In this document: piece after piece, positions 1 through 44,022 of the stretch | Layout: the number at the start of each line of letters is the position of its first letter | How positions within the stretch are numbered: the stretch's first letter is position 1 | Assembly: GCA_947447265.1 (NCBI GenBank) | Contig: CANFKC010000038.1 | Coordinates: 1-49,197, forward strand | Direction of reading: 5' to 3' | Length of the DNA stretch: 49,197 nucleotides | Source: Chitinophagaceae bacterium | GTDB lineage: Bacteria > Bacteroidota > Bacteroidia > Chitinophagales > Chitinophagaceae | Program-made: the position numbers and the translations under genes | The notes under the pieces: generated by a model | Told to the model about the DNA's origin: nothing | The model's input: the letters and a program-made list of their open reading frames with translations, nothing else | Databases searched by the model: none

Positions 1-2583
1 ACCTGTACTGATGGTTGCAATACTTGTGGATACTGAACTCCATGTACCGCCGGAAGCAACATCACTCAATGTAGTTGTAGCACCAGCACAAACGGTTGTT
101 GTTCCTGCTATAGTTCCTGCAACCGGTAAAGGACTAACTGTTACTGTAGTTGTCGCAACGTCTGTGCCGCAACTATTGGTTACTGTATAAGATATGATTG
201 ATGTGCCTACTGAAACTCCTGTAACAATACCACCTGTACTGATGGTTGCAATACTTGTGGATACTGAACTCCATGTGCCGCCGGAAGCAACATCACTCAA
301 TGTTGTTGTAGAACCCGCACAAACAGTTGTTGTGCCTGTTATGGTACCTGCAACCGGTAGCGGGCTAACTGTTACTGTTGCTGTTGCAACGTCTGTACCA
401 CAGCTATTGGTTACTGTATACGATATAATTGATGTGCCTGCTGAAACACCTGTGACAATGCCGCCTGTACTGATTGTTGCAACGCCTGTAGAAACTGAAG
501 TCCAGGTACCGCCAAAAGCAACATCGCTTAATGTAGTTGTAGCACCCACACAAACAGTTGTTGTACCTGTTATAGTACCTGCATTGGGTAATGGGTTAAT
601 TGTAATAATAGTGGCCGCTGTATCAATCCCGCATGAATTCGTAACTACGTACCTGATGGTATCTATACCTGCGGTAACACCCGTAACAATCCCTCCGGCA
701 ACCGTAGCTGTCCCATTGCTGCTGCTCCATGTGCCACCGGTTATTACATCAGTTAGTGTAAGCGTTGCGCCAACACAAACCTGAGAAACTCCGTTAACTA
801 TTACTGTTTTGATAGCAGTGTCTGATCCGCAGGCGTTTGTGACGATATACATTATTGTGTCTGTACCAGGTGTAACACCGGTTACTACGCCACCAGAAAC
901 GGTCGCAATGCCGTTGGTCGCAAGCCAGGTACCACCTGTTGCAGTATCAGTTAATGTAACGGTTGAGCCGATGAACAGTCTTCTTTCTCCTACAATACAT
1001 CCGGCGAAGGGCAATGGGGTTATCGTTATTATTTTTATTGCAGTATCAGAGCCACACGCATTGGTAACTATATACCTTATGGTATCTATTCCTGCTATAA
1101 CTCCTGTTACAACACCGCCTGAGACTGTAGCATTTGTGTTAGTACTGCTCCACGCTCCGCCAGTAACAGTATTAGTCAATGAAATTGTAGCGCCAGCACA
1201 CACATTTGGCAGCCCGGTTATATTGCCGGGATCGGGAAGTACATTCGCAATAACAGTCATGGCCGTTGTAGTGATGGCGCCATTGGTCGCGAGCGCCCTT
1301 CCATTGAGTATAACGCCACTGGCCAGGATGATTGCATCATTGTTCGCAACAACTGTACCATTAAAAATGGAGCCATCATGTATATCAACTGCACCTTCAA
1401 CCAACCAAAATATGTTTTTTACTTGTGCACCATTCTGCAATATCACCCTTGAATTGTTGGAGGTGGAAAAAGCACCATTCACCTTGATCACAAATACTGC
1501 ATTGGAATTACCCTGTGCATCCAGGTACAGCGTATCCGTAAACGTTGTCGCAGCGTTTAACAGGTATGTATGTGGTGTGAGCAATAAGTTATGCCCAAAC
1601 AAAGAAGGAAATAGCAATGTAACGTCAGGAGTCAGCGAGCTTAGATAAGTGTAAACATTGCCTAAATCAGTTGCAGCGGTTCCTGTTGACCCATCCGCAG
1701 TGGCATGAATAGTACCAGTGACCAATGACGTTGTGAAACCTGATGCTCCGCCGGAATTGGAGCCGATATCTCCGGTAACCGTTGTAGCCCCTGTATTTGT
1801 AACTGCTCCACTTGCCGAAAATATAGCATAACAATTCGTCGTCGCTAAAGTCGGAGCCGTTGGACCTGTCAATGCTCCCGGAGTAAATGGAATATAAGCG
1901 ACAGTATTATTTATTGTAACCGCACCCGCTGTAGATAGTGCCCTTCCTTCAAGATTGGCGCCAGAACTTATGCTGATTGCACCAGCATGAGCTATCACAG
2001 TTCCCTTCATTGTAGTTCCGGCGGCAATGCTTACGGCTCCCTCTACCTTCCAGAACACATTGGCTGCCTTTGCGCCGTTTATTAAACTGATACGCGACGC
2101 TGCATGTGCACTAAAGGTTCCCTGTATCTGAAATATAAATACGGCATTAGTATTGCCCTGCGCATCTAAGACAAGTACCGAGTCCAGTGTGGCCGATGTT
2201 GAAATGTGGTACACACCAGCAATAAGTGTATCGCCATTACCGAGCGAAGCGGAAAGCGTGGATGTTGGCGTTGTCGTATCTAGTTGATTATAGGCAATCA
2301 GCAAATCAGAAGCACAAAGAGCACTTACCGAATTATTATCCTGCATGGCGCCATTTACATTGCTAAACCCGGTACTGGAGGTACTATTGGAACCCACATT
2401 CCCGGTTAGCTGCGAGCTGCCGCTATTGCTCATAGCCCCAGTGGTAGTAAACAGAACAAAATTGGCAGCACTACCTAAATTTGGCGCCTGTCCGAAACCG
2501 ATACCTGGCAATAAAAAAAGAACAATTGACGCAAAACTACCCAGTAACTTTTTCAATCCTTTTACTTTGTGTTGCGATAGCAT
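1..2583 (-). CDS. Ice-binding-like (DUF3494) surface protein with Ig-like repeats, 3' end cut by window edge
   Basis: The minus-strand frame is open from an ATG at 2583 to base 1 (861 residues) with no stop, so the C-terminus lies outside the window. Residues 1-32 form a signal peptide (basic start, hydrophobic core, ending FGQA). Residues about 32-240 and about 250-445 are two copies of the ice-binding/DUF3494 fold; each has the 'FxLFTTTGAM..TGNVGSN' type opening, a 'LDAQGNxNAVFIF' core and the 'GRAL...GAI' closing motif. From about residue 455 onward come at least six Ig-like repeats of 66-78 residues, each marked by 'GGTWSS' and 'VTNxCG'; the first carries A in place of T (GGAWSS). DUF3494 proteins bind ice or act as adhesins; several Bacteroidota members are large T9SS cargo. 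The lost C-terminus may hold a T9SS sorting domain, which is inference. Exact substrate (ice or another surface) cannot be told from sequence. Confidence 0.88.
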   Translation of the reverse strand, partial: MLSQHKVKGLKKLLGSFASIVLFLLPGIGFGQAPNLGSAANFVLFTTTGAMSNSGSSQLTGNVGSNSTSSTGFSNVNGAMQDNNSVSALCASDLLIAYNQLDTTTPTSTLSASLGNGDTLIAGVYHISTSATLDSVLVLDAQGNTNAVFIFQIQGTFSAHAASRISLINGAKAANVFWKVEGAVSIAAGTTMKGTVIAHAGAISISSGANLEGRALSTAGAVTINNTVAYIPFTPGALTGPTAPTLATTNCYAIFSASGAVTNTGATTVTGDIGSNSGGASGFTTSLVTGTIHATADGSTGTAATDLGNVYTYLSSLTPDVTLLFPSLFGHNLLLTPHTYLLNAATTFTDTLYLDAQGNSNAVFVIKVNGAFSTSNNSRVILQNGAQVKNIFWLVEGAVDIHDGSIFNGTVVANNDAIILASGVILNGRALATNGAITTTAMTVIANVLPDPGNITGLPNVCAGATISLTNTVTGGAWSSTNTNATVSGGVVTGVIAGIDTIRYIVTNACGSDTAIKIITITPLPFAGCIVGERRLFIGSTVTLTDTATGGTWLATNGIATVSGGVVTGVTPGTDTIMYIVTNACGSDTAIKTVIVNGVSQVCVGATLTLTDVITGGTWSSSNGTATVAGGIVTGVTAGIDTIRYVVTNSCGIDTAATIITINPLPNAGTITGTTTVCVGATTTLSDVAFGGTWTSVSTGVATISTGGIVTGVSAGTSIISYTVTNSCGTDVATATVTVSPLPVAGTITGTTTVCAGSTTTLSDVASGGTWSSVSTSIATISTGGIVTGVSVGTSIISYTVTNSCGTDVATTTVTVSPLPVAGTIAGTTTVCAGATTTLSDVASGGTWSSVSTSIATISTG

Positions 2584-2767
2584 TATCGCAAGTTGCAAAA
2601 GTAGACGAGTGCATTGCCCCAGTTATTATACAAACCTGTCGATAAATTACATCATTCACATAATGTTGAATTTTACGCCGTATTTTTAAATTATACCGAG
2701 TCTCACGCAGGTATGGTTGGGTCCTCTTTTTCGATTGCAGTCTAAATTTCGTGCGCAGTCTATTGGG

Positions 2768-2789
2768 TTGTTGGTCGGAAGACCAACAA
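2768..2789 (+). repeat. Dispersed hairpin repeat, copy A
   Basis: A 9-bp perfect stem (TTGTTGGTC / GACCAACAA) around a GGAA loop, followed by GCGAAAA. It is the shortest and most diverged of three copies in the window (others at 5386-5409 and 6401-6424). It lies in the 259-bp gap between the divergent ice-binding gene and the secreted protein at 2843. Apart from this hairpin and a weak -7-like box (TAGCTTTC, 2823-2830) nothing else was seen in the gap. Confidence 0.75.
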
Positions 2790-2842
2790 GTGCGAAAAGG
2801 CGAAAAATTACTAAATAAATTGTAGCTTTCTCTTTTAACACC

Positions 2843-3913
2843 ATGCGCAATATTTTTGTCCTTATCACATTTTTAGTGGGATTCATTGAACCTGTGTCAG
2901 GCCAGCATTACATCATGCGCCACGGACATAAGGTGTATCGCACATCGATCGGTTTCGGGAATGATGGCATTGATGATACATGGAATGATGCAGGTTTTAA
3001 ACTACCCAGGCATTCCCCTTTAGATTTTGGTGTAATTGGCACTGAAATTCCGGGCAAGTTCAATGCTACCGAGGCTCTCTTCAAGTTATTCCCAGGCAGG
3101 CACTTCTATTTGACTGACGAAGATGATGCCAAACGTTATTACAGCGCAGCGGTGTGGATGTCGCCTAAAATGCCACGGCATTGGGTGAAGAGTGAGGGTA
3201 TTGACCATTGGTTTCCTGGCAAAGAGGGTAACTTCACTAAAGTTTACAAGGCTGTTCCATTTAAAAATGACAGTGGCCGGCAGTTTGTATATGTAATATT
3301 CGAGCATAACCCACGTACATCAATGGATGCACTCTACGTCGGGGTCGGTTGCGGTGCTGATATGGCACTGGCTTTATTCGCCCAACAGAAGGAAAAATGG
3401 GTCCTGACTCATTTTTCTATCTACGCCGGATCCTCTGGCAACTATACCAGGTTGACCGCCGAACCTTCAATTAAAAAATTAGGCAAAAACAATTACGCTC
3501 TGGAACTTTTCTCGCCTGTTAATGGACCTGGTGGCCCAAGTTATGGGGAAAGTTATTTGTACGCACCCATGGGTCATACCATAAACCTGGTGTATAGCAG
3601 TCAACCATCGGCGGTATGGGATTTTAATGGAAGATGCTCCCGGTGGTATTCTAAACTGCAGCCAATGCCGGGTAGTGGTACTTTTAACGACCTGAAAGTA
3701 ATTACTTCGGGTGATTATTGCCTGCCCTCTATGGCTGGAGGTATTTACGAGGATGATACTATTGGGTACACTCCAGAGGAAGTTTTCTTTAAAACCAGCT
3801 ATGCAGATAGCTTCGGATATAAGATCACTAAGTTGTACCATTTTGATGGAAAAAAATATAAATGGCAACACACTTTTTTTAAAACCTTTGCTGTGAAATT
3901 AAAAAAGAGGTAA
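2843..3913 (+). CDS. Secreted protein of unknown family
   Basis: 356 residues starting at ATG 2843. A clear signal peptide (MRNIFVLITFLVGFIEPVSG) precedes a mature part beginning QHYIMRHGHK. The rest is rich in aromatic residues, Gly and Pro, without transmembrane segments, Cys clusters or a recognisable catalytic motif. It carries no T9SS tail that I can see. The gene stands alone: divergent to the adhesin upstream and followed by a 235-bp gap. I do not recognise the family. Aromatic-rich beta-type composition suggests a folded periplasmic or extracellular protein; nothing more can be claimed. Confidence 0.8.
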   Translation: MRNIFVLITFLVGFIEPVSGQHYIMRHGHKVYRTSIGFGNDGIDDTWNDAGFKLPRHSPLDFGVIGTEIPGKFNATEALFKLFPGRHFYLTDEDDAKRYYSAAVWMSPKMPRHWVKSEGIDHWFPGKEGNFTKVYKAVPFKNDSGRQFVYVIFEHNPRTSMDALYVGVGCGADMALALFAQQKEKWVLTHFSIYAGSSGNYTRLTAEPSIKKLGKNNYALELFSPVNGPGGPSYGESYLYAPMGHTINLVYSSQPSAVWDFNGRCSRWYSKLQPMPGSGTFNDLKVITSGDYCLPSMAGGIYEDDTIGYTPEEVFFKTSYADSFGYKITKLYHFDGKKYKWQHTFFKTFAVKLKKR

Positions 3914-3938
3914 CGAAAGAGCCTACCGGGACATCGAT

Positions 3939-4019
3939 TTATTTGTCCAACGCAAAACCTTCATAGATCATCTTGATTTCTGTATCAAGAGGTGTGATAA
4001 TTACACCGTAGTATCTGCA
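3939..4019 (-). pseudogene. Possible C-terminal remnant of a lost gene
   Basis: On the minus strand a 26-codon stretch with protein-like composition (contains ITPLDTEIKMIYEGF) ends in a TAA at 3939-3941 and is closed upstream by another TAA at 4020-4022. It has no start codon. Its codon use resembles the neighbouring genes, so it may be the last few residues of a deleted gene. It is too short for family assignment and could be chance. Confidence 0.25.
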
Positions 4020-4124
4020 TTAGTAGCAAACTCTTTTCAGAATAAAGTTGAGCAGTTGTGGGCAGTTTACAAAACAACTGCTTACTGGTATAAAACAACT
4101 ACGAAATTGAAATCATTTCAGAAC

Positions 4125-4132
4125 TAACTTTG
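4125..4132 (+). promoter_or_regulatory. Bacteroidetes -7 box (TAACTTTG)
   Basis: A perfect match to the TAnnTTTG -7 element recognised by the Bacteroidetes primary sigma factor, 16 nt before the start codon of the AraC-type gene at 4149. No convincing -33 element is visible at normal spacing. Confidence 0.55.
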
Positions 4133-4148
4133 GTTGTAAATTGAAATT

Positions 4149-4964
4149 GTGATAACGACATTTCTACCTGAACACCCGGCACTACAACGTTATGTTGACT
4201 TCTTCTATTTTTTCAGAGCAGAACAAACTGAAAAGTGGAATCACATTGCATTTCCTCATGTTAATACGGGGCTTTCTTTCTTTAGTGGTGTGTCTATTGA
4301 CAGAAACGAATATCGGATAGCAATAAAAGGTCAGGCAGGAAATAAGCCATGCATAGAGATGCTGGGGAAATATACCCGTCCTGTATTTGTGAGTTGTGAG
4401 GGTTTAATAGATGAAGTCGCAATTGTATTTAAGCCTTTGGGGGGTAATAGATTTATAAGGGAAGATTTTGTGCAGGCGGCTCCCGAATATTCGCAAGCTT
4501 ATAATAATGCACTTTGGTTGAAAGCAGCTGATGCTTTATTCCGTTCTGACGATAGGATAAAATTTCTAGAGGAATTTTTGATTTCCGTTTTAATTGAAAA
4601 TGAGCAATTCAGTAAGATGGAAAAAGCCCTCGCCATGTTTGAAACTAACGAAGCTGACCATAGCGTTGTGGATGTGGCCGATAAATTAGATGTTAACCTG
4701 AAAACTTTTCAAAGAAATTTCAGGAAGCTGATGGCCTGTTCGCCATCCGACTATAAGCGAATTGCCAGGTTCCGGAATGCCTTACGATCAAAATTTCAAT
4801 CAGGTGAAATCAAGTCACTGACGAGTATAACCTACGAACAAAATTATACGGACCAATCTTACTTTATAAAGGAGTTCAGGAAATTGACCAATCAAAATCC
4901 GAAAGCATTTTTTAAAGAGGCAAGCCTTGTAGATGGCGACAAAATTATCTGGGAAATTCTATAG
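4149..4964 (+). CDS. AraC-family transcriptional regulator
   Basis: 271 residues. The start is a GTG at 4149; a TAA at 4137-4139 closes the frame just upstream, leaving no other good start. The N-terminal half begins with 'HPALQRYVDFFYFFR', the pattern of the DUF6597-type sensing domain of AraC regulators. The C-terminal ~100 residues hold two helix-turn-helix units: 'VVDVADKLDVNLKTFQRNF' and 'TYEQNYTDQSYFIKEFRK', followed by the typical PxxF ending (QNPKAFFKE). It should bind DNA and respond to an unknown ligand. Downstream is a small membrane protein that might be a target, but no operator was identified. The gene is visibly AT-richer than the operon at 13.7-19.9 kb. Confidence 0.88.
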   Translation: MITTFLPEHPALQRYVDFFYFFRAEQTEKWNHIAFPHVNTGLSFFSGVSIDRNEYRIAIKGQAGNKPCIEMLGKYTRPVFVSCEGLIDEVAIVFKPLGGNRFIREDFVQAAPEYSQAYNNALWLKAADALFRSDDRIKFLEEFLISVLIENEQFSKMEKALAMFETNEADHSVVDVADKLDVNLKTFQRNFRKLMACSPSDYKRIARFRNALRSKFQSGEIKSLTSITYEQNYTDQSYFIKEFRKLTNQNPKAFFKEASLVDGDKIIWEIL

Positions 4965-5023
4965 CTGTCTTAATAGTACAATTTCGTGGTGATTTGTTCT
5001 CGTTCTTTTGTATAAAAAAAGAA

Positions 5024-5266
5024 ATGAAAACACCAATCAACAAGGTTCTCTACATCGGATTTCTGGCGCTGGGTGCGTACCAGTGTCTTCTATTAAAAGA
5101 TTACATGCAGGCTGCGGCATCACTGGGCATAGGCATGGCATTTGACCCTTTCGATGTAAAGCAGCAATGGAATGACAGACCGAAATGGCAAAAGATTGTA
5201 CTCGTTGCAAACCTGGCATTGGTTGCAGCAATGTTTGGATTCGGAATAGGGTTGAATGATCGCTAG
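5024..5266 (+). CDS. Small membrane protein, unknown function
   Basis: 80 residues from ATG 5024 (MKTPINKVLYIGF). Two hydrophobic segments (about residues 8-38, partly interrupted, and 60-77) flank a polar stretch 'FDPFDVKQQWNDRPKWQK', giving a two-helix hairpin in the inner membrane. A longer reading from a TTG at 4994 adds ten residues, but the ATG fits better because it is preceded by an A-rich leader (AAAAAAAGAA). It lies 59 bp after the AraC gene on the same strand, so co-transcription is possible. I do not recognise a characterised family. Confidence 0.75.
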   Translation: MKTPINKVLYIGFLALGAYQCLLLKDYMQAAASLGIGMAFDPFDVKQQWNDRPKWQKIVLVANLALVAAMFGFGIGLNDR

Positions 5267-5319
5267 GTTTTGGTCTGGCGATTTTAGAGAGTTTCGTTTT
5301 GTCTGCTATGGCTCGCAGA

Positions 5320-5416
5320 GAGATAGTTGCGGGGGAAGTTTTAATAATAACCGCTTTTACTGATGCAAAACGATTAGGTCGTTTGGTTGTTGGTCAGAAG
5401 ACCAACAACGGCGAAA
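5320..5416 (+). repeat. Dispersed hairpin repeat, copy B
   Basis: About 97 bp that aligns with 6334-6430 along its full length: a 'GTTGYSGGGGAA' type start, then 'GCAAAACGA.TAGGTC', then a 10-bp stem GTTGTTGGTC / GACCAACAAC with AGAA loop at 5386-5409, then GGCGAAA. It ends 28 bp before the DUF4262 gene. The 178-bp gap 5267-5444 contains nothing else apart from a near -7 box (TATCTTTA, 5423-5430). Confidence 0.8.
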
Positions 5417-5444
5417 TTTTTATATCTTTATTATCAAAACTCAT

Positions 5445-6197
5445 ATGGGTGATCTACAGTCGCATGACTGCAATGAAGTAGAGAGTAGGATAATAAATAA
5501 TATTAAAACGATAGGCTGGTCGGTCGTGATGATTGAAGCGACACCATACTTTCCTTCATTTGCGTATACAATTGGCTTATGGAAGAATTATAAACACCCT
5601 GAGATTATTGCATTTGGATTATCCGTTAAAACACTTCACTCCGTCTTAAATATTGCAGGAGAAAATATCAAAAATGGAAAAAGTTATTTAGTAAATACAG
5701 TCTATTCCGATTTTTTCGACGAAGGAAGTTCCCAATTGATTTCCGTAGACGCACGTAGCATACAGGACTATTTTGGTTATGCAATCTGGTTCAATAATGG
5801 ACCGGGATTTCCAGCACTACAATTAGTGTGGCCCGACAGGAATAACAAGCTCCCATGGCAAAATGGTTTTGACGAAGCATTCATTGATCGTCAGCCCTTA
5901 TTGGATAGGAATGCTGACTTCAAATTTCGGGAAGTAAAAAACCTTGCTGTCTTTACGACTCGTCAATGGTTGGAACAGAATAAACCGATTCTTCATGTTG
6001 TACATGACGAGGAGGGTGATTGGCAATTTCTGACTGGCGACCAAATGCCTGAAGATGCCAAAATTGTAGCTTTAGAACAGATGGTTTTAAGAGACAACTC
6101 ACTTAATGAGATCTTTAATTTAGACTACGGGGAACAAGCAGAGCGAGATAGTATTAATGGGAAATGGAAGCGAAGTAAATCAGTTCTCGAAGAATGA
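5445..6197 (+). CDS. DUF4262 domain-containing protein
   Basis: 250 residues from ATG 5445. Residues about 15-150 match the DUF4262 pattern: 'GWSVVMIEATPYFPSFAYT', 'GLWKNYKHPEIIAFGL' and later 'PALQLVWPD..NKLPW'. The C-terminal part (about 175-235) contains 'ILHVVHDEEGDWQFLTG', a segment found attached to DUF4262 or in separate DUF2185-like proteins with the 'H.DGDWQFL' motif. No signal peptide, so cytoplasmic. The biochemical function of the family is not known; it occurs sporadically, often near toxin-immunity or mobile genes. The gene is AT-rich and followed directly by a strong terminator at 6247-6278. Confidence 0.85.
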   Translation: MGDLQSHDCNEVESRIINNIKTIGWSVVMIEATPYFPSFAYTIGLWKNYKHPEIIAFGLSVKTLHSVLNIAGENIKNGKSYLVNTVYSDFFDEGSSQLISVDARSIQDYFGYAIWFNNGPGFPALQLVWPDRNNKLPWQNGFDEAFIDRQPLLDRNADFKFREVKNLAVFTTRQWLEQNKPILHVVHDEEGDWQFLTGDQMPEDAKIVALEQMVLRDNSLNEIFNLDYGEQAERDSINGKWKRSKSVLEE

Positions 6198-6246
6198 TTA
6201 TCTAGCCTGCATCTTAAGCTTGTTTACAACTTTCAATTTCACAATG

Positions 6247-6278
6247 AAGAGGCCAATCATTTATTTGATTGGCCTCTT
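6247..6278. terminator. Intrinsic terminator after DUF4262 gene
   Basis: 13-bp perfect stem (AAGAGGCCAATCA / TGATTGGCCTCTT) with a TTTATT loop and a short T-run, 49 bp after the stop codon at 6197. The symmetrical A/T flanks would let it work in both directions. Confidence 0.85.
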
Positions 6279-6333
6279 TATACCCACCAACGGGGTAAGT
6301 GTTGTACGTTTTAGGTATTTTTATGAAGCAGGT

Positions 6334-34196: not shown

Positions 34197-34730
34197 ATGA
34201 AACTGATCCAACGTTTATTATTTGTTTGCCTTACGCTGCTTACCATATCAGGTTTTGCGCAGCAAAAGAAGTTCACTTCTACCCAGGAAGCGGTTAGCTA
34301 CATTAATGACCAATGCAATAAATACTGGATAATGGAGAAGATGCCCGGTATAGCATCGCATGAAATAATGGTTTACCAGCATGGTTTTCAATTGTTCTTT
34401 AATGAGAAAACGATTTTTAAGGGGAAAATGAATGCGGCAGGTATTGAAGAAAATGAAGTGCATACCACACTTACAAGTATTAACCTGGAGCAGGCAAAAC
34501 GGGCTGGCAATGGAACAACAGTTGGCTTTTCCGGCACCAAGAAGAATATTGTAACGGTTTCCTACCATGGGTTTTCTCAGCTGAATAATAAGGGAGAGTT
34601 CAACAACACCTATGTATTGCCGCTCGACTATACCAACAGGGCCTTAATGCAAACAATTAACGACCTGAATGCAGCCGTAGATTATCTTTTAGCAGAATGC
34701 TACACAAAGGCGTGCAGGTTGAAAAACTGA
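34197..34730 (+). CDS. Secreted protein, paralog 1 of a local pair
   Basis: 177 residues from ATG 34197. Signal peptide (MKLIQRLLFVCLTLLTISGFAQ). The mature part aligns along its length with the protein at 36872: shared 'KKFTS', 'CNKYW', 'YQHGxQLFFNE', 'LDY', 'LxxAVDYLL'. Two Cys near the ends ('NDQCNKYW' and 'AECYTKAC') could form a disulphide. No known domain recognised; probably periplasmic. Own promoter at 34147-34154. Confidence 0.78.
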   Translation: MKLIQRLLFVCLTLLTISGFAQQKKFTSTQEAVSYINDQCNKYWIMEKMPGIASHEIMVYQHGFQLFFNEKTIFKGKMNAAGIEENEVHTTLTSINLEQAKRAGNGTTVGFSGTKKNIVTVSYHGFSQLNNKGEFNNTYVLPLDYTNRALMQTINDLNAAVDYLLAECYTKACRLKN

Positions 34731-36871: not shown

Positions 36872-37414
36872 ATGAAAACATTCCTCACTTCCGTAATTGC
36901 CTTGCTGTTGCTTGGTGCCGGTACCACAAAAGCGCAGGATAAAAAATTTACTTCCAGTGCAGCCGCAACAAAATTCATTAACGAGATCTGCAACAAATAC
37001 TGGCTTATTAATACTAAACAAGATGATATATCGCGCGAAATAACTGTTTACCAGCACGGTTGCCAGTTGTTCTTTAATGAGCGGAGTGTGATGCGCTCTA
37101 AAACGGAGCCAGAAGGTGGCGAAGCTTATAATACCCTCATCAGCGTTAACCTGAGGAAAGTAAAACAAATCGGTAATTATAACATGATTGAGTTTGCCGG
37201 TGGCAGGAAAGACATAGTAACCCTCAATACCCGCGGTAATGCGCAATTTAATGCCAAGGGCGAATACAGCAGCCGCTACCGAGTAGCGCTTGACTATGCA
37301 AACCCCGTACTTAAAAATACCCTTTACGACTTAACAACTGCTGTTGACTACCTGCTAAAACAATGCCATGGCAAGGCAGTTAAAAAAGGCAAAAAGAAAG
37401 TGCACCACAAATAG
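36872..37414 (+). CDS. Secreted protein, paralog 2 of a local pair
   Basis: 180 residues from ATG 36872. Signal peptide (MKTFLTSVIALLLLGAGTTKAQ), then a mature part homologous to the protein at 34197 ('KKFTSSAAATKFINEICNKYW', quoted in part; 'ITVYQHGCQLFFNE'; 'LDYANPVLKNTLYDLTTAVDYLL'). The tail is basic (KKGKKKVHHK) and absent in the paralog. Unknown family. The 268-bp gap before it holds no gene. Confidence 0.78.
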   Translation: MKTFLTSVIALLLLGAGTTKAQDKKFTSSAAATKFINEICNKYWLINTKQDDISREITVYQHGCQLFFNERSVMRSKTEPEGGEAYNTLISVNLRKVKQIGNYNMIEFAGGRKDIVTLNTRGNAQFNAKGEYSSRYRVALDYANPVLKNTLYDLTTAVDYLLKQCHGKAVKKGKKKVHHK

Positions 37415-38227: not shown

Positions 38228-38311
38228 CCAGGGGATATTTTTTTCTGTTGGCATAGGGGTATCTCCTTTCTGAGTTGTCTTGTATGGGATGTAAGCATCC
38301 GCAGGAACAAT

Positions 38312-38342: not shown

Positions 38343-38906
38343 ATGGAAATGGATACCGGGGCCAAAGCACGGCACATAGAAAGTATTGCCAACTATGAGC
38401 ATGCTTTTAAAACCAACTTTAAGGGGCTGCATGCCTATGCCTATACCCTGATAAAAGACGATGTGATGGCGGAGGAAATGGTGCAGAATGTCTTCTATAA
38501 ATTATGGAAGAACCGGGAAAGTATACAGATTACCGAATCCCTCACCGCATACCTCTACAGGTCGGTATACCACGAAAGCCTTAATTATCTGAAGCATCTG
38601 AAAGTAAAAGCAGCCTATCAAACTTATGCAGCCAGGAATATGGAAACGGCGAACAATTCGACAGAAAGAATAAAACTGCGCGACCTGCAGGCAAAACTGG
38701 ATGTGGCACTTAAAGAATTGCCAGAACAATGCCGGACGATTTTCCAGATGAGCCGGTTTGAGGAACTGAAGTATATGGAAATTGCGGAACGGCTCGGCCT
38801 ATCGATTAAAACCGTAGAAAACCAGATGGGTAAAGCGCTGAAGCTGCTGCGCCTGAAACTGGTCGACTTTCTACCTGCCATTCTTCTTTTATTGCTTAAC
38901 ATTTAA
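38343..38906 (+). CDS. ECF RNA polymerase sigma factor (Bacteroidetes family 1)
   Basis: 187 residues from ATG 38343. Region 2 (about 20-90): 'YEHAFKTNFKGLHAYAYTLI', 'AEEMVQNVFYKLWKNRE', 'LTAYLYRSVYHESLNYLK'. Region 4 (about 115-170): 'LKELPEQCRTIFQMSRFEEL' and helix-turn-helix 'MEIAERLGLSIKTVENQMGKAL'. This matches the Bacteroidetes sigma-70 family 1 that pairs with FecR anti-sigma factors. The FecR gene follows after 10 bp. It should direct transcription of the cassette and perhaps other surface genes. Confidence 0.95.
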   Translation: MEMDTGAKARHIESIANYEHAFKTNFKGLHAYAYTLIKDDVMAEEMVQNVFYKLWKNRESIQITESLTAYLYRSVYHESLNYLKHLKVKAAYQTYAARNMETANNSTERIKLRDLQAKLDVALKELPEQCRTIFQMSRFEELKYMEIAERLGLSIKTVENQMGKALKLLRLKLVDFLPAILLLLLNI

Positions 38907-38916
38907 CACAGCAACC

Positions 38917-39903
38917 GTGAATAGAAATTCAAATAACGCCAACGACGACCTACTGGTCAAATATATGCTGGGAGAAGCCACCGGTGCTGAACAAAAAGAG
39001 GTTCAGGATTGGATGGCGGCCGACCCCAACAACCAAAAATATTTTGAGGATTTTAAACTGATATGGGACCAGAGCAAAGACCTAGCCGGCACATCGGATA
39101 TAGATGAAAATGAAGCGTGGCAACGCTTTACCCAACGGGTAGCAAAAGAGGAGGCTGATGCACCATCCACAAGGATAATACCACTACAACGAACTAACTG
39201 GATGCGGGCAGCCGCAATACTTCTAATACTGGCAATTGCCGGTGGTATTGCCAATTACCTTACAGGAAATACCGGAATGGAAATGCGCACAGCAAGATCT
39301 GGCGCCACACCTGTAACTGACACCCTACCCGATGGGTCAATTATAGTACTGAATAAAAATTCTACGCTTACCTACCCTTCAAAATTCACCGGCAGCACCA
39401 GAAAGGTAACACTAGAAGGAGAGGCATTTTTCAGCGTTGTACACAATAAGGCCCAGCCATTTATTATTGATGCTAACAATGCCGCTATAACCGTTGTCGG
39501 CACTACATTCAATGTAAAAACCACAGCCGCCAAAACCGAAGTAATTGTAGAAACAGGTATTGTTGAAGTAGCAAAAAAACAAAATGCCATAAGGGTAATA
39601 CATAACCAGAAAGCAATTGTAACTTACGAGAAGCCGGCACCTGAAATGGAGCGCAACACGGATATGCTGTATAACTACTACCGTACGAAAGAATTTGTTT
39701 GCGATGGCACACCGCTCTGGAAACTGGTGGAAACATTGAATGAAGCTTTCGATGTGCACATCAGCATAGCTAACACAGCCGCGCGGAACTTGCCGCTAAC
39801 AGTAACGTTTCGGGATGAGCCAGAAGATGAAATGCTGAAGGTAGTTTGTGCAACACTAAATTTGCAACAGGAAAAGAAGGGCAACACCATTATTCTAAAA
39901 TAA
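38917..39903 (+). CDS. FecR-family anti-sigma factor
   Basis: 328 residues from GTG 38917. Cytoplasmic N-terminal anti-sigma part ('DDLLVKYMLGEATGAEQKEVQ'-like opening, 'FEDFKLIWDQSK'), one membrane helix near 90-110 ('AAAILLILAIAGGIANYL'), periplasmic FecR domain (about 120-225: 'LPDGSIIVLNKNSTLTYPSKF', 'LEGEAFFSVVHNKAQPFII', 'VVGTTFNVKTT') and a DUF4974 domain at the end ('PLWKLVETLNEAFDVHISIA', 'LTVTFRDEPEDEMLKVVCATL'). It holds the ECF factor and receives a signal from the STN domain of the next gene. Spacing: 12 bp to that gene. Confidence 0.94.
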   Translation: MNRNSNNANDDLLVKYMLGEATGAEQKEVQDWMAADPNNQKYFEDFKLIWDQSKDLAGTSDIDENEAWQRFTQRVAKEEADAPSTRIIPLQRTNWMRAAAILLILAIAGGIANYLTGNTGMEMRTARSGATPVTDTLPDGSIIVLNKNSTLTYPSKFTGSTRKVTLEGEAFFSVVHNKAQPFIIDANNAAITVVGTTFNVKTTAAKTEVIVETGIVEVAKKQNAIRVIHNQKAIVTYEKPAPEMERNTDMLYNYYRTKEFVCDGTPLWKLVETLNEAFDVHISIANTAARNLPLTVTFRDEPEDEMLKVVCATLNLQQEKKGNTIILK

Positions 39904-39915
39904 CGCGACAGCTTC

Positions 39916-41730
39916 ATGAAGCTATTCTATAAATGCCTTTTGACGCTTTTTATATTGCTGCCTGTGTGCCTGATGCACACGGGCAGTTATGCGCAAACGT
40001 TATTAGGCAAAACAGTAACTATTGACGTAAAGAAGCAACCGTTACGCGACGTATTGCTGATGATGGGCAAACAACGCGATCTCAGCTTTTCTTATAACAG
40101 CAACAGCATACCGAACGACAGCCTGGTAACACTTGCCGCCCACAATAAAACTATACAGCAGGTGCTAGACCTTCTGCTGGGCGAAAGATGCCAATACCGG
40201 GAAACCGAAAACCACATTATTATCTTACCCGCGGAAAAAGAAAAATGGTTTACCATAAGCGGTTACCTGGTAGATGGCATAACAGGCGAAAAAGTGCCCG
40301 AAGCAAGTGTGTTTGAAGAGCAACAGCTTGTAGCCACGCTTAGTGATGCGCAGGGGTTTTTCAAATTGCGGATACGCGACCACGACAAATACGCATCGGC
40401 AAGAATAAGGGTGAGCAAGGGCTTTTACCGCGATACCGTTATTACGACAGGCCAGGGGTATGACCAGCAATTACAAATAACTTTCAACCCGGAAGACTAT
40501 ACGCTGCCGGGCATTGAAATAACCCCCTATGCTTCCGTGGAAAGGTCGTGGTTCGGTCGACATTTTTTTTCGTCAAAACTGCGTAAACAGAGTGCTAACC
40601 TCACGCGGTTCTTTGTTGACAAACCCATTCAGTTTTCATTTGTACCTGGCGTAGGTACGCACGGAAAACTCAGCAGCCAGGTAACCAATAAATTCTCGTT
40701 CAACGTATTGGGCGGCTACACGGCAGGCGTAGAAGGCTTTGAATTAGGTGGCCTTTTCAACATCAATAAAAAGGATGCCAAGTATGTGCAGATAGCCGGC
40801 ATATCGAACCTCGTAAGCGGCAATGCCCAAGGGCTGCAGATTGGGGGAATGGTAAATAATGTAGGTGGCTCATCAAGCGGCCTGCAGATTTCTGGCATTG
40901 TGGGCCGTGTTAAGAAAAACATGAACGGACTTAGTATTGCCGGAATATCCGGACATGTAGGCGGCAACATGAAGGGCATGCAGATAGCTGGTATTGCCAA
41001 TTTTGTACGCAGCAAAGACACTGCGCAAAACAATGATAAACCAGCGCCCGATAGTGTGAGGGGTGTGCAGATAGCTGGCATTATGAACATAGCCGAAGCC
41101 AATACCGAAGGTGTGCAGGTAGCGGGCATCGTGAATTTATGCAGGGGCAATATTAACGGTGTGCAGGTTAGCGGTATTGTAAATAAAGCACGTCGGTTAA
41201 GTGGTATGCAGATAGGCATTATTAACATAGCCGACACGGTTGATGGGTATGCCCTCGGCTTCCTGAACATTGTCAGGAAGGGGTACCATAAAATAAGTAT
41301 CTACAGCACAGAGTCATTCGCCATTAATGCAGCCTATAAGGCGGGCAATAGAAAATTGTATAGCGTGCTGTCGTTCAGCACAGCGGTTGCGGCCGGTAAA
41401 AAGGCTTATGCCTATGGTTATGGCATAGGCAACGAAGCTAGCCTGGGAAATCGTTTCGCACTGTGTTCAGAAGTTACGGCAAATAATGTTTACATGGGCA
41501 GCGCTGAGCAGTCGCCCATTTTCATAAGGTTGCAAAGCTCGCTCAATTTTAAAACCGGCAAGAAAGTGGCGATGTATGCGGGACCTGCATTTACGCTATG
41601 CCCCGTTGTACAAACAGCTACTGCAGAAGGCTACGCATCCGGTATACCGAAGGGTGCATTAAGTCCGTTTAAAATTGGCTTACGCACTGCCGGCTGGTTG
41701 GGTTGGCAGGTAGGCGTTTCTATATTTTAG
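39916..41730 (+). CDS. STN / carboxypeptidase-regulatory-like / LA_2272-type repeat outer-membrane protein
   Basis: 604 residues from ATG 39916. Signal peptide ending SYAQ (27). STN domain about 30-105 ('VTIDVKKQPLRDVLLMMG', 'LSFSYNSNSI', 'VLDLLLGERCQYRETENHII'), as in TonB receptors and secretins. Carboxypeptidase-regulatory-like domain about 112-195 ('TISGYLVDGITGEKVPEASV'). Residues about 270-455 contain some eleven repeats of period 15-16 of the form 'GxQIAGIxN' (at 306, 322, 338, 354, then 383, 399, 415, 430, 444), resembling LA_2272-family surface repeats. The last ~150 residues look like beta-strands ending in 'GWQVGVSIF'. No TonB plug or SusC-type barrel is present. With sigma and FecR directly upstream, the STN domain probably talks to FecR. 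Confidence 0.82.
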   Translation: MKLFYKCLLTLFILLPVCLMHTGSYAQTLLGKTVTIDVKKQPLRDVLLMMGKQRDLSFSYNSNSIPNDSLVTLAAHNKTIQQVLDLLLGERCQYRETENHIIILPAEKEKWFTISGYLVDGITGEKVPEASVFEEQQLVATLSDAQGFFKLRIRDHDKYASARIRVSKGFYRDTVITTGQGYDQQLQITFNPEDYTLPGIEITPYASVERSWFGRHFFSSKLRKQSANLTRFFVDKPIQFSFVPGVGTHGKLSSQVTNKFSFNVLGGYTAGVEGFELGGLFNINKKDAKYVQIAGISNLVSGNAQGLQIGGMVNNVGGSSSGLQISGIVGRVKKNMNGLSIAGISGHVGGNMKGMQIAGIANFVRSKDTAQNNDKPAPDSVRGVQIAGIMNIAEANTEGVQVAGIVNLCRGNINGVQVSGIVNKARRLSGMQIGIINIADTVDGYALGFLNIVRKGYHKISIYSTESFAINAAYKAGNRKLYSVLSFSTAVAAGKKAYAYGYGIGNEASLGNRFALCSEVTANNVYMGSAEQSPIFIRLQSSLNFKTGKKVAMYAGPAFTLCPVVQTATAEGYASGIPKGALSPFKIGLRTAGWLGWQVGVSIF

Positions 41731-41760
41731 TGTTGCCTAAATATTACTTGTCATTTTACA

Positions 41761-41897
41761 GGCGTTACAAACGCCGTTCCGGGGCATCCTCGTTGCAAAC
41801 GAGGACGAGTGCAGACTAGTGTGGATTAAAAACAATTCTCTTTACTGGCGTTACAAACGCCGTTCCGGGGCATCCTCGTTACAAACGAGGACGAGTG
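41761..41897. repeat. Direct pair of a two-hairpin repeat
   Basis: Two 51-bp copies (41761-41811 and 41847-41897) that differ at one base. Each holds GGCGTT-ACA-AACGCC and CCTCGTT-RCA-AACGAGG. They lie in the 252-bp gap between the two repeat-barrel genes, separated by a 35-bp spacer. Similar elements are dispersed in related genomes (recall). Confidence 0.85.
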
Positions 41898-41982
41898 TGG
41901 GCCTTCAAAATATTTTGTAGTTTTTCGTATTGCTGATAGGGGTAAATACTTGCTGTGTTGTCTTACTCTAAACGCAGTAATC

Positions 41983-43068
41983 ATGACATCAAAATTTCCG
42001 GTTTTACTCGCAGCTTTTTTATGCTGCAACATTTTATCAAAAGCACAGACTGATACACAACAGACCCAAAACAGCAACGTACATATTGGCTTGGTTTACC
42101 CACTAAGCACTAATGGCTTTCGAGCTGCAACATATACGAATCTGTTTTCGGCACATGCCTTAATAGGGGTATCAAAAAACGAGCGGGCATTTTGCGCAGC
42201 CGGTTTTGGTAATATTGTTAAAGACAGTGCGAAGGGGCTTGTAGCTGCAGGCTTCTTTAACGTAATTGGCCATGGCGCAAGCGGCATGCAGGCAGCAGGG
42301 TTTATAAACTGTATTGGCGGAAAAGCTACCGGCATGCAGGCGGCGGGCTTCACCAATATTACAGACAGCGCGACAGGTGCGCAGTTTGCAGGCTTTGTAA
42401 ATGTAAACCGCCATAACATAGACGGCTTTCAGGCAGCGGGTTTTATCAATACAGCGAAAAAGGTAAACACGCAGATAGCAGGCTTCGTTAACGTAGCCGA
42501 TTCAGTGTCGGGGTCGCAGGTAGCAGGTTTCATTAATGTAGCGGGTAAAGTAAAGGGTGTGCAGATAGCTGGCTTTATTAATGTTGCCGATAGCAGCGAC
42601 TACCCTATTGGCCTCATTAACATTATTAAAAAAGGCCAAAAGGCCATAGGCATTACTATTGATGAAACGGGCACTACGCTGGCCGCCTTCCGCTCAGGTG
42701 GAAAGGTACTCTATGGTATTGTTGGCGCGGGTTTCAACTTTAATTACAACAGCAACCTATTTGCCATGCAGGCCGGACTGGGTGCTCATTTACCACTTAG
42801 CAAATACATTACCCTGAGCGGAGAATTATCCGTCACTTCCCTAACTGATTTCTGGTGGGGCAGTTATATGAATTCAGCTATCCGCATAATGCCCTCTATA
42901 AAAATACGCAAGGTAGAAGCCTTCGCAGGGCCAAGCATTAACTATGCCAATACAACCCATGGAGTGGGCACCGGAATTATCAACAATACCCTCTGGCACG
43001 AACAAATTTTCCCGCGTACACACGATCTCCATATTGGCTTTTTAGCGGGCGTGCAATATCATCTGTAA
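41983..43068 (+). CDS. LA_2272-type repeat outer-membrane protein without STN domain
   Basis: 361 residues from ATG 41983 (MTSKFPVLLAAFLCCNILSKAQ signal peptide; upstream in-frame residues would spoil it). About eight to nine repeats of 14-16 residues of the form 'GMQAAGFIN' / 'GVQIAGFIN' fill residues 75-215. The part after the repeats ('IGLINIIKKGQKAIGI', 'GKVLYGIVGAGFNF') aligns with the same part of the 604-residue protein ('LGFLNIVRKGYHKISI', 'NRKLYSVLSFSTAV'), so the two share repeat region and C-terminal barrel. It has neither STN nor carboxypeptidase-regulatory-like domain. Confidence 0.82.
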   Translation: MTSKFPVLLAAFLCCNILSKAQTDTQQTQNSNVHIGLVYPLSTNGFRAATYTNLFSAHALIGVSKNERAFCAAGFGNIVKDSAKGLVAAGFFNVIGHGASGMQAAGFINCIGGKATGMQAAGFTNITDSATGAQFAGFVNVNRHNIDGFQAAGFINTAKKVNTQIAGFVNVADSVSGSQVAGFINVAGKVKGVQIAGFINVADSSDYPIGLINIIKKGQKAIGITIDETGTTLAAFRSGGKVLYGIVGAGFNFNYNSNLFAMQAGLGAHLPLSKYITLSGELSVTSLTDFWWGSYMNSAIRIMPSIKIRKVEAFAGPSINYANTTHGVGTGIINNTLWHEQIFPRTHDLHIGFLAGVQYHL

Positions 43069-43196
43069 CGCTGTATCGGCAGCCATCTACAAAAAAATCA
43101 CTGGCCTCGTAGGGGTAAACGCGAACACGATTGTCAATTAAGCATAACAATACGAACCAACATTTTAAACCTAAAAAACAAAAACAACACAACATC

Positions 43197-43910
43197 ATGA
43201 GAACAAGCATTTTCACACTATTAAGCCTGGTAATTCTTTTTACAACACCATCATGCCACAAGATATCTGGCGAAGGACCAACAGTGACCCAAACCTATAG
43301 TACTGGTAGTTTTACATCGGTTGATGCCGGCATTGATGCCGACCTATATTATACGCAGAGCAGCAATTATACCCTGGAAATAAGCGGGCAGGCCAATGTG
43401 TTAAGCCGTATAACTACGAATGTTGTAAATGGAGAATTGAGATTACAATTCCGCGACTTTGTATCCGTGTGGCACCATTCCCCAATAACGGTGCGTGTTT
43501 CTGCACCTTACCTCAGCGGTATGGGCATTAACGGTTCGGGTAATTTTTATGCACTGAGCAATGTAAGCACATCTACGCTCAACCTAAAGGTAAATGGTTC
43601 GGGCAGTATTAGCGTAGCAGGCTTTACGGGTCAGAGCCTAACAGGTAATATTTCAGGGTCCGGCGCAATAACGGTAAGCGGCGGAACGGTATCGGCGGAG
43701 AGCCTGCAGATTAGTGGCAGCGGCACAATGGATATGCTGGGTTTAAATGCCGTATCGGCAAGCACACAAACAAGCGGCAGCGGTAAAACAACCGTTAACG
43801 TAAGCAACAGCCTTGATGTGCGTATTTCAGGCAGTGGCGATGTATACTATGCTGGTAACCCGGCTATCTATACCAGCATCTCAGGTTCTGGTAAAGTAAT
43901 GAAGCTCTAG
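43197..43910 (+). CDS. GIN domain lipoprotein (putative auto-transporter adhesin head, DUF2807)
   Basis: 237 residues from ATG 43197. Lipoprotein signal with 'LFTTPSC' lipobox, Cys at 19. The mature part is a DUF2807/GIN right-handed beta-helix: 'FTSVDAGIDADLYYTQSSNY', 'GELRLQFRD', 'ITVRVSAPYLSGMGINGSGNF', then repeated 'GSGxxxV' turns to the end ('ISGSGKVMKL'). Such domains are surface or periplasmic and of unsettled role, possibly adhesive. Positioned 128 bp after the second repeat-barrel gene on the same strand, with a terminator following, so it may be the last gene of the cassette. Confidence 0.9.
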   Translation: MRTSIFTLLSLVILFTTPSCHKISGEGPTVTQTYSTGSFTSVDAGIDADLYYTQSSNYTLEISGQANVLSRITTNVVNGELRLQFRDFVSVWHHSPITVRVSAPYLSGMGINGSGNFYALSNVSTSTLNLKVNGSGSISVAGFTGQSLTGNISGSGAITVSGGTVSAESLQISGSGTMDMLGLNAVSASTQTSGSGKTTVNVSNSLDVRISGSGDVYYAGNPAIYTSISGSGKVMKL

Positions 43911-43932: not shown

Positions 43933-43959
43933 AGCAGTACCGCCTTTGGCGGTACTGCT
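43933..43959. terminator. Intrinsic terminator after GIN gene
   Basis: 12-bp perfect stem (AGCAGTACCGCC / GGCGGTACTGCT) with TTT loop and a TTTTTT run, 22 bp after the stop codon. Confidence 0.92.
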
Positions 43960-44022
43960 TTTTTATGTTGTACGCGCTATAATATCAACTGGCTTTTTGT
44001 ATGTTTATTGCAAAATCATCCT

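Follow-up and report, generated by a model that had tools for sequence, protein, structure and literature searches.

In most accounts of cell-surface signaling, a transporter reports the substrate that it carries. In the PupR/PupB and FoxR/FoxA systems, the transducer uses its STN domain to contact the anti-sigma factor at an STN-like end, and signal-dependent proteolysis frees the sigma factor (PMC7186176, PMC11637429). STN domains also occur in SusC proteins of sigma-controlled loci, where an N-terminal extension (NTE) precedes STN (PMC7782687). The PUMA3 system of Pseudomonas aeruginosa (VreA-VreI-VreR) has an STN “receptor” without a transporter barrel, which is encoded in an operon with an extracytoplasmic function (ECF) sigma factor and an anti-sigma factor and has been proposed to act in signaling only (PMC2729926, PMC4971064). 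Here we describe a gene cassette from a Chitinophagaceae bacterium (GenBank assembly GCA_947447265.1, contig CANFKC010000038.1, positions 1 to 49,197; this whole stretch is called the window) in which the likely sensor is a protein other than a transporter. It consists of an ECF sigma factor, a FecR-type anti-sigma factor, and an STN protein with 16-residue repeats, termed STN-REP. The cassette probably represents FecIRA-type cell-surface signaling in which sensing and transport are placed on separate proteins. The features of the locus are as follows.

38254..38279, + strand: predicted ECF-type promoter of the sigma-FecR-sensor operon, TAGGGGTA-N12-GTTGTC, exact
38343..38906, + strand: ECF sigma factor, 187 amino acids (aa); Sig70_bacteroi1, TIGR02985
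38917..39903, + strand: FecR-type anti-sigma factor, 328 aa, with FecR and FecR_C domains
39916..41730, + strand: STN-REP (sensor), 604 aa, with signal peptide, STN, CarboxypepD_reg, 16-residue repeats, and barrel-like C terminus; no plug found
40012..40227, + strand: STN domain of STN-REP, about residues 33-104 (from the model; Pfam match 56-106)
40246..40485, + strand: CarboxypepD_reg-like (transthyretin-like) domain of STN-REP, about residues 111-190 (profile and model)
40687..41280, + strand: 16-residue “GxQIAGIxN” repeats of STN-REP, about residues 258-455 (periodicity and model)
41281..41727, + strand: beta strands at the C terminus of STN-REP, with Phe as the last residue and weak structural matches to outer-membrane barrels
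41937..41962, + strand: second predicted promoter, exact, upstream of solo REP
41983..43068, + strand: solo REP, an STN-less, stand-alone paralog of the sensor with repeats and barrel; ATG start likely, open reading frame (ORF) listed from TTG 41950
43110..43135, + strand: third predicted promoter, 1 mismatch, upstream of the DUF2807 gene
43197..43910, + strand: probable DUF2807 (head GIN domain) lipoprotein; likely ATG 43197, ORF listed from TTG 43131

The sigma factor scores 161.8 bits with TIGR02985 (cut-off 126.4), and the anti-sigma gene matches both PF04773 (FecR, E = 7.5e-17) and PF16344 (FecR_C, E = 4e-10), the region whose STN-like nature rests on PMC7186176. The original prediction, made from the letters of the window, of an ECF sigma gene, a FecR gene, and an STN gene separated by 10 and 12 bp is borne out by the ORFs and by these profile matches. 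The same interval, up to 43068, encodes a fourth gene that was absent from that account: solo REP, which is 31-44% identical to STN-REP in three pieces. The TTG codons from which the solo REP and DUF2807 ORFs are listed overlap the promoter sites, and the likely starts are therefore ATG 41983 and ATG 43197, respectively.

In STN-REP, the STN domain is matched with 31.3 bits (E = 1.8e-7, cut-off 28.4) and is found in 10 of the 11 aligned members, while CarbopepD_reg_2 (E = 2.3e-5, 24.8 bits) stays under its cut-off of 32.2. Pfam yields no Plug domain at E ≤ 0.01 in STN-REP or in any of 10 relatives (11/11), and no SusC barrel was found in STN-REP with Pfam and NCBIfam profiles; the earlier statement that the protein has no TonB plug thus stands, and the search of residues 200-604, named then as a possible refutation, gave none. 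The proposed 16-residue period was confirmed as well: across residues 276-470, a lag of 16 gives 51 identities, and 1000 shuffles gave no more than 32 for any lag between 2 and 39. The description of the repeats as LA_2272-like is borderline: NF047436 gives 23.2 bits for the window protein, just under the curated cut-off of 25, and 8 of the 11 aligned members match the model at E ≤ 0.001. Solo REP has no match to this model.

The AlphaFold model of STN-REP, built with 11 sequences, has a predicted local distance difference test (pLDDT) value of 75.2 and a predicted template modeling (pTM) score of 0.51. The STN and CarbopepD regions are folded and are followed by a linker with pLDDT below 50 at residues 194-236 and 242-255; each repeat is modeled as a 7-residue and a 4-residue strand, with pLDDT of at least 90 across most of residues 301-440, and the strands become longer after the repeat region. 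Foldseek returned five solved structures at E ≤ 1e-3 (a SusC N-terminal domain, two chains of carboxypeptidase D, a cohesin complex, and a porin), with OmpA, NspA, and OprF at weaker scores. For solo REP (pLDDT 80), the twelve best structural matches are natural or designed outer-membrane barrels, none of which reaches E ≤ 1e-3. Outer-membrane barrels often end in Phe, and a C-terminal Phe is present in 68 of 81 STN-REP proteins. STN-REP likely carries an outer-membrane barrel end. Structure prediction, suggested earlier as a check for a barrel with a repeat solenoid, supports the barrel-like end, and the repeats may be a solenoid or an extension of the sheet. A TonB box in the linker after CarboxypepD was considered and is not claimed; VVVT-like stretches are seen in L040 and L069 (L, G, and C numbers denote our loci, genomes, and contigs), but conservation over 80 sequences is poor. 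The sensors of L037 and L039 have a repeat/barrel half that is 44% and 40% identical, respectively, to the solo REP of the window, compared with 25-31% for other sensors, a pattern that looks as if sensor and solo REP had exchanged ends.

Homologs of STN-REP at E ≤ 1e-5, including partial and repeat-only matches, were found in 105 of 195 Chitinophagaceae genomes, with at most the best 6 candidates per genome scanned; across the phylum, the alignment used as query found homologs at E ≤ 1e-20 in 71 of 395 genomes. Genes for sigma and FecR lie directly upstream on the same strand in 64 of 68 STN-REP loci, and the FecR-sensor gap is at most 100 bp in 62 of these 64. The triad is also present in 11 of 13 loci picked from other families of the phylum (L110-L122), and it is complete in four further families, which makes five families altogether. 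(Duplicate loci L034-L036 were dropped from synteny, partner, and motif counts, and L043, L045, and L046 are without STN-REP.) This survey of ECF/FecR neighbors upholds the predicted association, and at the sequence level sigma, FecR, and STN-REP are one conserved gene row. In family f24, which belongs to another class, STN-less repeat proteins stand alone in the five loci retrieved (L123-L127).

In the window genome (G000, 98.8% complete), the FecR (PF04773) and STN models match at E ≤ 0.01 in the cassette only. In the survey of all genomes, FecR and STN counts could not exceed the number of candidates scored, 24 and 32, respectively. A single FecR match occurs in 33 of the 195 genomes, and eight of these have the cassette (G000, G089, G166, G031, G042, G099, G125, and G171), while the remaining 25 have no strong STN-REP match. 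The single match was located in the cassette for G000, G166, and G099 and is inferred to lie there in the other five. The window genome, with one FecR and one STN gene found, offers a place to ask which signal a sensor outside transport responds to.

When the regions in front of cassette and partner genes were searched for enriched pairs of 4-mers, a single motif emerged, TAGGGGTA-N12-GTTGTC, which is of ECF type. At least 11 of its 14 positions are matched upstream of 60/75 sigma genes, 30/31 solo REP genes, 34/41 TonB-dependent receptor genes, and 12/43 DUF2807 genes, compared with 26/616 other genes of the same loci (sites listed in this work include those with at least 10/14; counts use at least 11/14). 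Single-base shuffles gave 1/75, 1/31, 0/41, 0/43, and 7/616, respectively; the real counts for the same comparison, at fixed spacing, were 60, 30, 33, 12, and 17. Columns that were not scored are conserved too: among 123 sites, T (73%) and A (70%) are found two and three bases after GTTGTC, and the ninth and tenth bases after it are each A in 82%. Many DUF2807 genes closely follow another partner gene and may be read from the promoter of that gene. Six of 85 sigma genes in the loci score below 180 bits, and those reach just 8-9 of the 14 positions. We infer that the sites in front of the sigma and partner genes are a shared ECF promoter of the cassette sigma factor. In the window, a 3-mismatch site (43947-43972) also lies just upstream of a 270-aa gene at 44008; chance gives about 3 such sites per window.

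Genome-wide, the exact motif occurs 72 times in 39 of the 195 genomes, and the reversed pattern 4 times. Exact sites are present in 35 of 64 STN-REP genomes versus 4 of 131 others, and one of these four, G097, has a cassette-type sigma gene with the site and no sensor match. The 64 genomes were listed by hand at a best E of at most 2e-42, leaving out G067 (1.5e-23) and G153 (6.1e-28). The FecR-rich genomes G028, G106, G030, G124, G145, G036, and G187, which have no strong STN-REP match, contain no exact site; the motif is therefore not a general FecR/SusC promoter, and, also in view of the six low-scoring sigma genes, a general Bacteroidota ECF motif was rejected. By coordinates, 46 exact sites fall in cassette regions and 26 outside (22 in L180-L201 and 4 in one-FecR genomes). 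Off-cassette sites precede the receptor (L183, L184, L191, L193, L194, L195, L199, and G089:C35), solo REP (L197 and L198), sigma-FecR (L189 and L190), and DUF2807 (G000:C46 and G171:C1). Among the others, L181 has a receptor 752 bp on; L182, L185, L192, and L196 precede other genes, with OMP_b-brl domains in L182 and L192; L180, L186, L188, and L200 resemble chance hits; behind L170 (G089) no gene fits; and L187 and L201 are left unassigned. Weaker sites stand before fitting genes in G171 (solo REP), G099 (solo REP and DUF2807), and G166 (receptor and DUF4249), while the one-mismatch sites L167-L169, L174, and L176-L179 lie inside ORFs or have no fitting gene and were taken as chance. G171 has a solo REP-DUF2807-receptor cluster on a contig other than that of its triad, and this cluster carries its own exact site plus another with 1 mismatch. 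The exact site of G000:C46 precedes a second DUF2807 gene of the window genome (L166, 5596-5976), which encodes 126 aa, about half the domain. In G095, a PepSY_like lipoprotein gene behind an exact site (L203, 1610-2041) is a possible further regulon member.

Within 6 genes of the 81 STN-REP genes, a TonB-dependent receptor is found in 42 loci, DUF2807 in 43, and solo REP in 31; solo REP lies within 4 genes in 28 of 68 loci. The receptor has CarboxypepD and Plug domains without STN and is mostly about 780 aa long; two of the 42 (L041 and L049) are distant. In the culturable Filimonas zeae (L036/L074), the receptor gene has a 13/14 site and its end is 14 bp ahead of sigma. Six receptors gave partial NCBIfam matches only, far under the cut-offs, and the L082 receptor has no match among solved structures. 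The window cassette includes solo REP and DUF2807 and no receptor; the two closest receptor homologs of its genome (42-43% identity) are on other contigs, and in a tree of 46 receptors with long branches they group with receptors of congeners. The original prediction presented the sensor as an STN protein without a plug whose trigger might be contact at the surface, the state of the membrane, or a ligand that is not a transported nutrient. Its first part, a plug-less STN protein tied to its own ECF/FecR pair, stands. Independence from a TonB-dependent transporter was too strong a claim, given the STN-less receptor near 42/81 loci and the motif before 34/41 receptor genes; for the window organism itself, the cassette without a receptor and the two homologs without the motif speak in its favor. 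In a Treponema metagenome-assembled genome (another phylum), a repeat protein directly precedes a protein that scores 324 bits with the receptor profile (L045, 50-4348).

Two loci bear on the origin of the cassette. L210, from family f24, encodes sigma, FecR, and an 861-aa receptor with STN, CarboxypepD, and Plug domains, residues 103-861 of which align end to end, at about 41%, with the STN-less receptors of the cassette regulon. On the simplest reading, STN and receptor are one chain in L210 and two in the cassette. In L190 (G097, 2049-3649), the sigma gene and its promoter are kept, as is the N-terminal portion of the anti-sigma factor, and the FecR and FecR_C domains are absent together with the sensor gene; this co-loss, a single case, is what would be expected if sensor and FecR meet in the periplasm. 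An unrelated Cys-containing periplasmic part replaces FecR in the L190 anti-sigma factor. L206 (G289, 351-6301) encodes sigma, FecR, a 495-aa protein in which STN and CarboxypepD but not Plug are matched, and then a protein with macroglobulin MG2/MG4 matches; the 495-aa protein may be a further STN sensor that lacks a plug.

We propose the following mechanism. The C-terminal barrel would anchor STN-REP in the outer membrane, and the STN domain, in the periplasm, would hold the STN-like C-terminal domain of FecR, by analogy with PupR/PupB and FoxR/FoxA. A change at the repeats would alter the STN-FecR contact, upon which FecR would be cleaved and sigma set free. The sigma factor would then read TAGGGGTA-N12-GTTGTC as its promoter and amplify itself and its surface partners, the putative targets being its own operon, solo REP, DUF2807, and, where present, the receptor. 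The weakest step is the trigger, which we tentatively place in the assembly or occupancy of a surface layer that pairs STN-REP with products of the regulon, above all solo REP; this trigger is favored because solo REP, itself probably made under control of the cassette, has repeats and a barrel in common with the sensor. As for the history of the cassette, a split transducer is possible, although we hold it with less than even confidence: the STN domain of a receptor would have passed to a repeat-barrel protein, and the receptor would have persisted, STN-less, under the same sigma factor. Sensor, solo REP, GIN lipoprotein, and receptor would then form one surface complex whose assembly state FecR receives, and the receptor would have dropped out in some lineages, including the window organism, leaving a pure non-transport sensor. 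The readable candidate promoter means that sigma, promoter, and targets can be tested together, and the proposal offers a possible role for “surface repeat” and DUF2807 proteins, of which little beyond the names has been available.

The evidence was also weighed against readings in which the trigger or the signaling protein is another. STN-REP and the STN-less receptor could act as one transducer, with the receptor importing a nutrient and signaling in trans, so that the transported substrate is the trigger. The receptor within 6 genes in 42/81 loci, the motif before 34/41 receptor genes and before off-cassette receptors, and the STN domain of the L210 relative agree with this; 39/81 loci without such a receptor within 6 genes and the window organism, whose two homologs lie elsewhere without a site, do not, and we consider it a real possibility that is rather unlikely to be correct. 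Signaling could instead serve envelope stress, with STN-REP as a structural, ligand-free sensor that responds when repeat or barrel proteins of the outer membrane are misassembled. This reading would account for the other envelope genes behind exact sites, namely OMP_b-brl (L182 and L192) and PepSY_like (L203) in addition to solo REP and DUF2807. Against it, genes for folding factors, proteases, or the barrel assembly machinery (BAM) were not recognized behind the sites inspected, and few genes per genome lie behind sites; we judge it unlikely.

The remaining two readings fare worse. STN-REP could be a plain surface protein that acquired its STN domain and whose place in an ECF/FecR operon is incidental, with another receptor doing the signaling; this would fit the stand-alone STN-less repeat proteins of family f24 and the four orphan sensor genes without adjacent sigma and FecR. 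Such a reading is improbable in view of the triad in five families, the finding of a sole STN gene alongside a sole FecR gene in the window genome, and the co-loss with the FecR periplasmic domains in L190. That STN-REP is an ordinary SusC/FecA-like transducer with an unrecognized plug is highly improbable: the order STN, CarboxypepD is indeed that of the STN receptors of L207, L209, and L210, and a SusC/RagA model matches 1 of 11 members (6.6e-5), but Plug is matched in 0 of 11, the C-terminal half is built of 16-residue repeats, and the protein has 604 aa compared with 861-1121 aa in five STN-plus-receptor proteins.

Several observations count against the preferred reading, a FecIRA-type system with separate sensing and transport. 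Sigma and FecR are not beside the sensor in 4/68 loci (L038, L041, L055, and L087), one or both are missing in 2/13 (L115 and L122), and none of the three partner genes is within 6 genes in 19/81. The motif is lacking from 15/75 sigma genes, some cassette-type sigma genes are among those without it (L042, 9 of 14 positions; L120, 7), which runs counter to a cassette-specific motif, and 29/64 STN-REP genomes have no exact site. Because motif discovery drew on the upstream sets in which the sites were then counted, the counts within those sets are not independent; the independent support comes from the genome-wide search, which carries no background rate for these families behind random sites. 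Of the 26 exact sites outside cassettes, no more than 14 stand before genes of the four families, and L189, counted among the 14, is probably the cassette of G095, truncated where a contig ends. With up to 1 mismatch, the eight one-FecR genomes have 38 sites versus 15 for the reversed pattern, and many such sites are thus chance. The two closest receptor homologs in the window genome have no promoter site and were rejected as regulon members. The STN model is weak and misses the G171 sensor, so that other STN genes may go unseen and the sole STN gene is a statement of what was found. The STN-REP model is of middling quality (pTM 0.51), with five Foldseek matches at E ≤ 1e-3 and none for solo REP, and the linker expected to hold a TonB box is poorly conserved. 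In PUMA3, deletion of VreA left the regulon unchanged in low phosphate (PMC2729926, PMC4971064).

Two side observations concern the surroundings of the cassette. A tandem pair of hairpin elements (CCTCGTTRCAAACGAGGACGAG) lies at 41788-41809 and 41874-41895, between sensor and solo REP; when up to 2 mismatches are allowed, the genome has 29 copies, of which 9 are exact, and the reversed pattern has 0. Upstream of the cassette, 34197-34730 and 36872-37414 of the window encode mutually matching proteins of unknown family.

Compared with FecIRA and its kin (FecA, FpvA, FoxA, and PupB; PMC11637429, PMC7186176, PMC9249621), the cassette shares an ECF sigma factor, a FecR-type anti-sigma factor with an STN-like C-terminal domain, an STN partner, and a sigma factor that, here by the sequence motif, would switch on the partner genes. 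Sigma and FecR are encoded together, and the promoter appears to be shared. It differs in that the STN partner is no transporter, with no plug found and with repeats and a barrel-like end, and in that the window organism shows no transporter gene behind the promoter. With this one defining feature of FecIRA absent, we call the cassette a variant. STN and CarboxypepD (as NTE) domains, FecR_C, and a Sig70_bacteroi1-type sigma factor link it to the ECF/FecR/SusC systems of Bacteroidota, but neither plug nor SusC barrel was found in STN-REP, in which, unlike the SusC proteins of PMC7782687, STN precedes the CarboxypepD domain. With the LA_2272 family (NF047436), the likeness is the repeat match common to 8/11 STN-REP members, with the window protein under the cut-off and solo REP unmatched. 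ECF promoters have been predicted elsewhere in the phylum from a CGT box, in Flavobacterium psychrophilum (PMC9723704). The annotation “STN and carboxypeptidase regulatory-like domain-containing protein” is on record (PMC12893687), so that such genes have been named before, while titles and opening abstract lines of the open-licence literature yielded nothing on an STN/repeat sensor, on a TAGGGGTA-N12-GTTGTC promoter, or on STN with LA_2272 repeats.

Whether the architecture belongs to an already described signaling family has an answer on two sides. STN on a non-transporter has its precedent in VreA of PUMA3, which shares with STN-REP the operon with ECF sigma and anti-sigma factors. VreA is described as small and mostly soluble with a TolA/TonB-like C-terminal domain (PMC2729926, PMC4971064), whereas STN-REP has repeats and a barrel-like end; the two are set side by side by description. 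The PUMA3 operon is PhoB dependent and not controlled by its own sigma factor, whereas the STN-REP operon stands behind a motif common to its partner genes. STN on a non-transporter is thus already known, and what appears to be new, as read from genomes, is a repeat-barrel STN sensor with a readable promoter and a predicted regulon.

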